NCBI RefSeq assembly: GCF_002001105.1
Contig: NZ_MUNP01000040.1
Location: 1 to 64,000 of the forward strand
Direction of reading: 5' to 3'
From: Rhodanobacter sp. C06
GTDB taxonomy: Bacteria; Pseudomonadota; Gammaproteobacteria; Xanthomonadales; Rhodanobacteraceae
DNA: 64,000 bases
The position numbers and the translations under genes were made by a program. The notes beneath the pieces are model-generated. The model ran no database searches. It was not told where the DNA came from and was given only the letters and a program-made list of their open reading frames with translations. Shown one piece after another: positions 1 through 11,428 of the stretch; within the stretch, counting starts at the first letter, position 1, and each line of letters begins with the position of its first letter.

Positions 1-254
1 GGGGGAGGCGGCGGAGGAACGTCGGTCTCATCTTCGTCATCCCCATGGCCTGGTGCTTGCATCTGGGGTGCCTCCTCCACCCGATATATGCCCAGTTCCA
101 CACGCAGCGGCGCACCGTCACCCAACTCCACTGCCAGCTTGAGCTCGACACTCGCTTGCGCCTTCCCCAGCACGCACTTCAGCTCCTCGGGCGAGGCATA
201 GCGCAGCGACGCATCGCTGCCGATGGTTGCCAGCAACTTGATCGTATCGGTCAT
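1..254 (-). CDS. Candidate split-borosin precursor peptide, 3' end beyond window
   Basis: Reading starts at the ATG at 254 and stays open to the window edge, so at least 84 residues are visible and the C-terminus is missing. A good ribosome site (AAGGGG, 6 bases before ATG) supports the start. The N-terminal half is predicted helical and contains the pattern IGSDASL ... EELKCVL ... ELGDGAPLRVELG, which resembles the borosin-binding domain of OphMA and SonA-type precursors (Ax-D-x-L, then GD-x3-L-x3-LG). After residue ~60 the sequence changes to an acidic linker (GDDEDETD) and an oligoproline run (VPPPPPP) at the edge. It lies 55 bases downstream of, and on the same strand as, an OphMA-like N-methyltransferase, so I infer it is that enzyme's substrate. 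The core peptide itself is probably outside the window. Alternative: an unrelated conserved small protein. Confidence 0.7.
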   Translation of the reverse strand, partial: MTDTIKLLATIGSDASLRYASPEELKCVLGKAQASVELKLAVELGDGAPLRVELGIYRVEEAPQMQAPGHGDDEDETDVPPPPP

Positions 255-309
255 GTTGTTCCCCTTGCCTCCATGTTCGGGCGACACCGGCGTGCCGTGC
301 CGTCCTGCT

Positions 310-1146
310 TCAGGCCGCTGTGGCGGCCCGTCCCCTCGCATCCAGCGCTTGCAGCCGCTCCAGCATGGCACGGTTCGGCTGCAAGGCCGCGGCCGGCGGC
401 AGTACCACGGTTTCCTCGGCGGTCACCGATGCCTCGGCCAGCTCGCGCAAGGTCATGTGCCGGATGCGCGGTCGCTCGATGGGCAAGGTGGCACCACGGT
501 AGACGATGACCTCGTGGCTTGGCGGGTAGTCCTGCTCCAGCCGCTCCACCAGCAGGGCGCGATACGAGGGGCCGTCGTCGAATCGCCCCACGGAGCGGTT
601 GCCGACCACCCCCACCTGCCACAGCACCAGGTAGCCCGCGGGGTCGATGCGCCGCTCGCAGTACAGCAGCTGGCTGGCTTCGAAGTGCTGGCAGCCGTAA
701 CGGCCGGGGTCAAAGCCGAGGTCGGCGTAGAGGCAGTCCTCGGCGGAAATGCCCGGTTCCATGTGCGCCTCGTAGCCTTCCGCGCGCGCCTGTTCGATCA
801 CCTTGTGCGGCGACCAGGCGAAGATGCCGGGGTGGCCGTAGAACACGCCGCAGACCCGCTTGCCGGCGCGCAGCTCGGCCATCATCAGCGCCACCCATTC
901 GCGGTAGGTCTTGATGCGCGGCTTGCCCTCGGCGTAATTGGGCTGCAGGCTGCGCACGTCCAGGTGCATGCGCTTCAACCACTCTTCCGCGATGGCGTCG
1001 GAAAGCGCCGCGAACACCACGTCCGCCTGCTCGATATGGCTGCGCGCCAGCGGGGTGAGGTGGGAGCCCAGGGTCATGCCCAGGCCCACGCAGCTCAGGC
1101 TGCCGCGGCGGGTTTCGTGCAGGGATGGCAAGGCGGTCGGTGGCAT
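310..1146 (-). CDS. Borosin-type peptide backbone alpha-N-methyltransferase (OphMA/SonM-like)
   Basis: Predicted SAM-dependent methylase of the tetrapyrrole-methylase fold, 278 aa from ATG 1146 (a TTG at 1164 is an alternative). The order of motifs follows the borosin methyltransferases: RRGSL-x2-VG near the N-terminus, EGKPR-x3-TYRE (the catalytic Arg and Tyr region of OphMA), GVFYGHPGIF, EPGISAEDCLYADLG, LVLWQVG, LLVERLEQDY and a final VLPP. These motifs separate it from cobalamin and sirohaem methylases. In fungal OphMA the substrate is fused at the C-terminus; here the protein stops soon after the catalytic domain, and a short precursor-like gene follows on the same strand, the arrangement known as split borosin (for example SonM/SonA of Shewanella). 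Its expected reaction is iterative N-methylation of backbone amides in the partner peptide, in the cytoplasm. Confidence 0.88.
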   Translation of the reverse strand: MPPTALPSLHETRRGSLSCVGLGMTLGSHLTPLARSHIEQADVVFAALSDAIAEEWLKRMHLDVRSLQPNYAEGKPRIKTYREWVALMMAELRAGKRVCGVFYGHPGIFAWSPHKVIEQARAEGYEAHMEPGISAEDCLYADLGFDPGRYGCQHFEASQLLYCERRIDPAGYLVLWQVGVVGNRSVGRFDDGPSYRALLVERLEQDYPPSHEVIVYRGATLPIERPRIRHMTLRELAEASVTAEETVVLPPAAALQPNRAMLERLQALDARGRAATAA

Positions 1147-10561: not shown

Positions 10562-11428
10562 ATGCGCGAAGCACATGTCAACGAACTGGTCGAGCTGCTG
10601 CAGCTCGAACGGCTGGAGGACAACCTGTTCCGCGGCCAGAGCCGCGACATCGGCACGCGCTTCGTGTTCGGTGGTCAGGTGCTGGGGCAGGCGCTGTCGG
10701 CGGCGCAGCGGACCGTCGACCCGTCGCGCGAGGCGCATTCGCTGCACGCCTATTTTCTGCGCGCGGGCGACATCGACGCACCGATCGTCTACAGCGTGGA
10801 GCGCGCCCGCGACGGCGGCTCGTTTTCGTCGCGCCGGGTGCTGGCGATCCAGCACGGCCAGCCCATCCTGAACGGCTCGATCTCGTTCCAGGTGCCGGAA
10901 AAGGGCTTCGAGCACCAGACCGCGATGCCGGAAGTGCCCGCGCCGGAAGACGTGGAGCCGATGCGCCCGCTGCCGCCGGAAGAGTTGGCCAAGCTGCCGG
11001 TGAAGCTGCAGCGCTGGCTGGGCATCGACGGCCCGTTCGAGTTCCGCCTGGTGTGGCCGCGCGACGAGATGCATCCGGTGAAGCGGCCGCCGATCCAGCA
11101 CATCTGGTTCCGGCTCACCGCACCGGTCGCGGACTCGGCGGTGCTGCACCGCGCCCTGCTCGCCTATGCCTCGGATTTCCACCTGATCGGCACCGCCACG
11201 CTGCCGCATGGGATTTCCTACATGACCCACAACGTGCAGATGGCCAGCCTCGATCACGCGCTGTGGTTCCACCGCCCGTTCCGGGTGGACGAGTGGCTGC
11301 TGTACTCCTTCGACAGCCCCACCGCCCAGGGCGGTCGCGGCCTGGCACGCGGGCAGATCTTCAGCCGCGACGGCCGGCTGGTCGCCTCCACCGCGCAGGA
11401 AGGCCTGATCCGCCTGCGCGGCGAATAA
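10562..11428 (+). CDS. tesB: Acyl-CoA thioesterase II
   Basis: A 288-aa double-hotdog thioesterase that hydrolyses medium- and long-chain acyl-CoA. N-terminal features are FGGQVLGQAL and SLHAYFLRAGD; the C-terminal hotdog holds Asp205 (YASDFHL), Ser229 (MASLDHALWFH) and Gln279 (STAQEGL), which match the Asp204/Thr228/Gln278 catalytic set of E. coli TesB, with Ser replacing Thr. Length is the usual one. It stands 13 bp before a small membrane protein gene on the same strand. Confidence 0.95.
   Translation: MREAHVNELVELLQLERLEDNLFRGQSRDIGTRFVFGGQVLGQALSAAQRTVDPSREAHSLHAYFLRAGDIDAPIVYSVERARDGGSFSSRRVLAIQHGQPILNGSISFQVPEKGFEHQTAMPEVPAPEDVEPMRPLPPEELAKLPVKLQRWLGIDGPFEFRLVWPRDEMHPVKRPPIQHIWFRLTAPVADSAVLHRALLAYASDFHLIGTATLPHGISYMTHNVQMASLDHALWFHRPFRVDEWLLYSFDSPTAQGGRGLARGQIFSRDGRLVASTAQEGLIRLRGE

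Follow-up and report, generated by a model that had tools for sequence, protein, structure and literature searches.

Two minus-strand genes at the very start of contig C9 of Rhodanobacter sp. C06 raise the question of what a split borosin is made for. Split borosins have been described in terms of chemistry and structure, and the accessible parts of three reports (PMC8429565, PMC11395268 and PMC11285071) give no biological role for them. The pair opens the window, the whole stretch of 64,000 nucleotides that was analysed, and a first-pass annotation had read it as an OphMA-like N-methyltransferase followed by a separate precursor, that is, as a backbone-methylated RiPP pathway in a Xanthomonadales bacterium.

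Searching the predicted enzyme against the PDB with phmmer returned SonM (7ltc) as the top match (E 1.9e-66); OphMA-type proteins followed at about 1e-46 to 1e-50, and no corrin methylase did better than 2.1e-5. The enzyme, whose 278 aa are counted from the ATG at 1146 (an alternative TTG start is possible at 1164), is 43.7% identical to SonM over 254 aligned residues. The alignment also revealed that the equivalents of SonM Y58, R67, Y71 and Y93 are all kept; these are active-site residues mutated in the SonM study, as far as its accessible text goes (PMC8429565). SonM being the best PDB match and all four residues being present, the earlier call of a borosin methyltransferase holds. Two of the motifs listed for it, VFYGHPG and PGISAEDCLYADLG, stand exactly as given, but the first motif reads EGKPR-x2-TYRE, and the x3 pattern originally proposed gave no match. 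The assignment as a borosin-type backbone N-methyltransferase, nearest to SonM and with methylation predicted, is supported by these sequence comparisons, and the host order fits the distribution of the enzyme among Rhodanobacter relatives.

Pfam assigned the window enzyme to the TP_methylase superfamily only (7.3e-22), a wide placement of the kind that a borosin enzyme would be expected to give. The genome has three further TP_methylase places, and the window enzyme is the weakest match among the four. A tetrapyrrole (cobalamin or sirohaem) methylase with an unrelated small ORF beside it could draw on this superfamily placement and on a weak likeness to YabN (4.7e-9) and CobJ-type models, yet it is scarcely conceivable, as the PDB match to SonM is about 60 orders of magnitude better than that to any corrin methylase, 78 of 80 loci have a SonA-type partner after the enzyme, and no NCBIfam cobalamin or sirohaem model reached its cut-off against the window enzyme (best 35.7 bits, cut-off 525). 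The last of these searches had been proposed in the first-pass annotation itself and placed the enzyme in neither methylase group. A corrin or sirohaem methylase was rejected on the PDB ranking and the NCBIfam cut-offs.

Divergent from the methyltransferase, positions 1315-2820 of the window encode a serine carboxypeptidase (Pfam S10, 3.8e-21), which is absent from the families recurring around the enzyme and was not adopted as a leader peptidase. Open frames of 550-560 aa in two related loci (L092 and L094) had the appearance of an enzyme fused to an upstream domain; they were not counted, because by eye the extra residues look like the upstream gene read out of frame.

The small gene begins 55 bp after the enzyme, a gap that the annotation had given and that was confirmed from the enzyme stop to the precursor ATG. 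Its ORF runs from 254 to 3 without a stop, the C-terminus being lost at the contig edge. In 78 of the 80 related loci the next gene after the enzyme is a precursor of this family, and the other two loci end at most 133 bp from the enzyme match. When a profile of 47 precursors, headed by that of the window, was compared with the PDB, SonA chains were the best seven sequences (best E 4.9e-4). A model of the 84 visible residues (pLDDT 74.6) contained helices at 2-13, 15-18, 22-31, 36-44 and 48-54, followed by coil, and its first three Foldseek matches were SonA chains, none of them significant (best E 1.7, prob 0.66). The borosin-binding-domain-like N-terminus annotated earlier is thus borne out by the profile match, with which the Foldseek result agrees without reaching significance; both motifs cited for it are present, ASL as such and GD-x3-L-x3-LG as GDGAPLRVELG. 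The gene is supported as a putative borosin precursor with a SonA-type leader, and enzyme and precursor together support the proposed backbone-methylated RiPP pathway, in which methylation itself is predicted.

In the accessible part of PMC8429565, SonA is laid out as a five-helix borosin-binding domain (residues 1-53), a linker (54-61) and a core (62-71). We infer the core boundary of the window precursor from this layout and from alignment with relatives (Table 1). The predicted core region is polar and acidic and the tail, cut by the contig edge, acidic and Pro-rich. Known borosin cores are mostly hydrophobic. A second precursor group has CC(L/M)LVP-like cores (L087, L092, L094 and L097), and in L087, L092 and L097 such a core is repeated inside one precursor.

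Table 1. Features of the split-borosin locus at the start of the window
Feature	Positions	Strand	Basis
Split-borosin alpha-N-methyltransferase, SonM-like, 278 aa	310..1146	minus	PDB phmmer, Pfam and SonM alignment
Borosin precursor gene (putative), first 84 codons	3..254	minus	ORF; family common to 78/80 related loci
Leader, residues 1-54, borosin-binding domain, 5 predicted helices	93..254	minus	Profile and model
Linker, predicted core (PQMQAPGHG), start of acidic Pro-rich tail	3..92	minus	Alignment with relatives and SonA layout
Purine-rich stretch, candidate ribosome-binding site of precursor	261..272	minus	Read from sequence

A third partner came from the neighbourhood survey of 82 loci, comprising the 80 related loci, the window and L003 of the window genome. 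One family was outstanding near the enzyme, a protein of about 590 aa encoded on the same strand in 72 of the loci surveyed and predicted to consist of a signal peptide, a helical TPR-like domain, one membrane helix and a GGDEF cyclase. This sensor was found in 72 of the 80 related loci overall. Where at least 2.8 kb of downstream sequence was present (69 named loci), profile annotation gave the order methyltransferase-precursor(s)-sensor in 65 loci, and the sensor was missing in four. The distance from precursor stop to sensor start has a median of 12 bp and is below 60 bp in 68 of 72 cases. No shared transporter or peptidase was found near the enzyme, no ORF family beyond the cassette genes and antisense shadows occurring in more than 12 of the 82 loci, by a grouping that misses short genes (it grouped the precursors, present in 78/80 loci, in only 28 and 11). 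An acidic tail was considered as a strict mark of sensor-linked precursors and rejected: beyond residue 55 the precursors of the four loci without a sensor have 1-5 acidic residues and those of the 72 loci with one a median of 10, but the lowest count among the 72 is 0.

Both the GG[DE]EF signature and an RxxD I-site are found in 88 of 91 sensor copies, the remaining three being cut by contig ends. Under simple, looser rules, a signal-peptide-like start was found in 80/86 sensors and a membrane segment before the GGDEF domain in 88/88; a stricter topology scan, requiring an N-terminal hydrophobic segment and exactly one later membrane segment, passed 56/91. The model of the L034 sensor (pLDDT 88.0, pTM 0.57) shows helical repeats at 35-316, a long helix at 320-419 and the GGDEF domain at 429-578. 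Among the matches listed by Foldseek for this model (best 50), all were of GGDEF type, so the TPR part was not confirmed in this way. The sensors of the window genome did not reach the cut-off of the Pfam TPR models, which 5/7 GGDEF relatives, 3/3 kinase relatives and 2/5 fusions exceeded (see below). All 41 aligned sensors have a pair of cysteines, spaced 30 residues apart, in the N-terminal part, and the pair recurs with the same spacing in 4/4 SonM-type sensors, as would be expected of a periplasmic disulfide.

The window genome has such sensors beyond the contig edge. Contig C81 of the same genome, outside the window, opens with a TPR-GGDEF sensor, and C9 and C81 appear to be adjacent, because in an alignment to the relative L034, taken in gene direction, the end of C9 reaches base 11142 and the start of C81 begins at base 11167. 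Farther on, C81 carries 45 codons left over from a methyltransferase C-terminus, another precursor, this one complete (L003:2139-2396), and two additional sensors. The three sensors of this genome all have GGEEF and an I-site (Pfam GGDEF 5.8e-39 to 7.4e-41).

Such arrays recur: of the 80 named loci, 13 have at least two sensors (L044, for instance, reads RRMpRpRpR). Ten between-cassette gaps were searched for enzyme remains. C-terminal scraps of the enzyme were found in all four gaps preceding secondary precursor-sensor pairs in L003, L036 and L044 (two gaps), and the gap of L106 gave a weak N-terminal methyltransferase match (E 0.003); no enzyme remains were found in the gaps of L087, L089, L120, L121 and L122. 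The scraps indicate that whole cassettes were duplicated and that the enzyme then decayed while precursor and sensor stayed. A sensor search of six genomes of one or two contigs each, at a threshold of 1e-40, returned 16 matches, of which 13 belong to arrays with the enzyme, one neighbours an orphan precursor (L130) and two stand alone (L123 and L128).

These arrays bear on an account in which the sensor answers some other periplasmic cue and times borosin production or release through c-di-GMP, the peptide being an ordinary product that is secreted and whose target lies outside. Biosynthesis genes often have a sensor gene beside them for regulatory reasons, and the spacing of precursor and sensor is tight, but secondary cassettes keep precursor and sensor while losing the methyltransferase, and L130 holds an orphan precursor-sensor pair. 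We consider this account possible, though not probable; the loss of the methyltransferase and the orphan pair fit a ligand and its receptor better than a regulator of biosynthesis.

Association of enzyme and sensor was also evident at the genome level. Among 233 genomes of the family, 162 have the enzyme and 158 the sensor domain: 157 have both, five the enzyme only, one (86% complete) the sensor only, and 70 neither, counts that are not independent events because the genomes are related. The five enzyme-only genomes belong to one genus. The four of them that were read encode a single TPR-GGDEF-methyltransferase protein of 821-870 aa, and in the fifth, G034, the enzyme lies within an 893-aa open frame. 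Pfam found GGDEF and TP_methylase along one ORF in all five fusion proteins from four genomes (L152-L155), and a SonA-like ORF precedes the fusion genes (profile E 2.6e-5 to 5.7e-3). None of the five fusion proteins has the I-site, and the TYRE motif is gone from one copy (L154:7400-9922). Separately, two contigs labelled Candidatus Eremiobacteraeota and Bordetella (L099 and L110) encode enzymes 64-65% identical to that of the window, and are perhaps mis-binned.

Outside the family the enzyme is less common: sampling across the class found it in 9 of 369 genomes and sampling across the phylum in 15 of 398, the family itself included in both samples. All 20 outside loci were retrieved. A GGDEF protein is adjacent to the enzyme in 11, being downstream on the same strand in nine (L132, L134-L138, L140, L141 and L146), divergent in L133 and immediately upstream in L139. 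In three more (L142-L144) the precursor is instead followed by a protein that combines TPR repeats with HisKA, HATPase_c and two receiver domains, and neither sensor type is present in the remaining six (L145 and L147-L151). The precursor profile scored in 5 of the 11 GGDEF-linked loci (L132, L134, L135, L136 and L146, in the last about 3 kb upstream), and small ORFs were read by eye in some of the others. The enzymes of L135, L140 and L141, each with a TPR-GGDEF gene downstream, are 67-77% identical to SonM, indicating that the sensor accompanies close relatives of the published SonM/SonA as well. Comparison of sensor-domain profiles aligned 353-374 columns and gave 9e-26 for family against SonM-type, 7.8e-12 for family against kinase and 4.3e-18 for SonM-type against kinase, scores that TPR-like repeats can inflate.

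Several outside loci have features of their own. L147:8174-8929 encodes a methyltransferase homologue with none of the four SonM active-site residues, and L145:6842-10363 a 1174-aa protein whose only part recognised by Pfam is a borosin-type methyltransferase close to the N-terminus. L149 and L150, with a small ORF upstream of the methyltransferase, a transporter-like protein (by eye) downstream and no GGDEF or kinase sensor, are a different kind of cluster. In L134, where the precursor is acidic-tailed, an aspartyl peptidase that is pepsin- or shewasin-like by eye (DTGSS motif) is encoded upstream of the enzyme (L134:6783-8183); a search made without a positive control found no match to it in any of 21 relatives of the window genome. 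Shewasin A reportedly cleaves a borosin precursor.

With fusions and output domains in hand, two further accounts can be weighed. The enzyme-precursor complex might dock on the GGDEF protein in the cytoplasm and modulate the cyclase, the peptide never being exported. This would suit the fusion of the methyltransferase to the cytoplasmic GGDEF end (five proteins, four genomes), the nearly touching sensor and methyltransferase genes of L139 and the lack of a conserved exporter; it is nevertheless unlikely, as what the cyclase and kinase versions have in common is the predicted periplasmic TPR domain and not the cytoplasmic output. Alternatively, the locus could be an ordinary borosin cluster whose GGDEF neighbour reflects historical linkage without functional meaning. 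The loci in which the sensor is missing (6/20 outside, 4/69 within the family) speak for such a coincidence, which is nonetheless quite improbable given an association that outlasts families, rearrangement, fusion and a swap of output domain.

The kept gene order, the co-occurrence, the fusions and a sensor domain that stays the same on two types of output argue that precursor, enzyme and sensor cooperate, and a ligand with its receptor would be the simplest reading of their association. The presence of the sensor as a neighbour in most relatives suggests that the peptide is a signal and not an ordinary antibiotic-like product. In the mechanism we propose, the methyltransferase would bind the precursor leader and N-methylate backbone amides of the core, as its homologues imply. 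A peptidase would then cut the core from the leader and the core would reach the periplasm, where backbone methylation may aid membrane crossing without a dedicated exporter. There the core would bind to the periplasmic TPR domain of the neighbouring sensor and shift the output of the diguanylate cyclase or, in some relatives, of the histidine kinase. Tandem precursor-sensor pairs served by one methyltransferase may then form separate ligand-receptor channels. That the locus is a three-part split-borosin operon whose core is recognised by the periplasmic TPR domain and so governs c-di-GMP has, in our estimate, close to an even chance. Weighing against it are the polar and acidic predicted core, the absence of a peptidase or exporter known to go with the cassette, the loci in which the sensor is missing and the TPR scores below cut-off in the sensors of the window genome. 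We hold more tentatively the general proposition that N-methylated ribosomal peptides are ligands of periplasmic TPR sensors driving c-di-GMP or phosphorelay signalling, with duplicated pairs acting as channels under one methyltransferase.

Coevolution of the proposed partners was analysed by a mirror tree of 59 loci. The partial correlation of core and TPR domain, allowing for enzyme, leader and GGDEF distances, was 0.317, and that of core and GGDEF domain 0.106. With clustered shuffles (cut 0.25) the core-TPR value was reached by 0/1000 and the core-GGDEF value by 821/1000; with coarser clusters (cuts 0.3 and 0.35) the core-GGDEF value, too, was reached by only 9/1000 shuffles. The signal is not specific to the core, because the leader tracks the TPR domain (partial correlation 0.416) above the methyltransferase (0.269). 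The mirror tree thus gives weak support for core-TPR pairing, and the signalling role is put forward as a hypothesis with good comparative support.

Among known systems, SonM/SonA, the type IV split borosin of Shewanella oneidensis (PMC8429565, accessible part; PDB 7LTC), has a separate enzyme and precursor as in the window and shares with it the Y58, R67, Y71 and Y93 positions and a helical binding domain; compared with SonA, whose core is short, the precursor here is longer, its core being polar and its tail acidic and Pro-rich. OphMA-type borosins (types I-III) have a homologous methyltransferase domain, but there the precursor is fused to the enzyme. A GGDEF-sequence-containing domain is among the borosin architectures in the legend to Figure 1 of PMC11395268, so the sensor link is not wholly new; the fusions described above (L152-L155) may be this GGDEF type. 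The accessible text of PMC11395268 mentions no TPR sensor, separate three-gene operon or histidine-kinase version, as present here, and that of PMC11285071 mentions neither GGDEF nor signalling. A text search of the literature returned no paper tying borosins or backbone N-methylated peptides to a diguanylate cyclase or c-di-GMP.

A parallel in arrangement is offered by the RRNPP receptors. These cytoplasmic proteins have a helical TPR-type domain that binds a processed, unmodified peptide encoded alongside. The present sensors likewise combine a helical, TPR-like domain with a candidate peptide ligand encoded next door. Unlike RRNPP receptors, they join the sensor domain to a GGDEF or kinase output and are predicted to expose that domain to the periplasm, the peptide being predicted to be N-methylated; the signal-peptide-like starts (80/86) and membrane segments (88/88) differ from the cytoplasmic location that defines an RRNPP receptor.

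Judged from comparative evidence, the locus is a real split borosin of ordinary chemistry, with methylation predicted, and is notable for its sensor partner. A conserved sensor, kept through duplication, fusion and a swap of output domain, offers a testable role and a candidate receptor for split borosins, and Shewanella, Rhodanobacter and Dyella are simple laboratory systems for testing the signalling role. If true, the proposal would add a modified-peptide input to c-di-GMP signalling and would give a biological role to many split borosins, including relatives of SonM/SonA.
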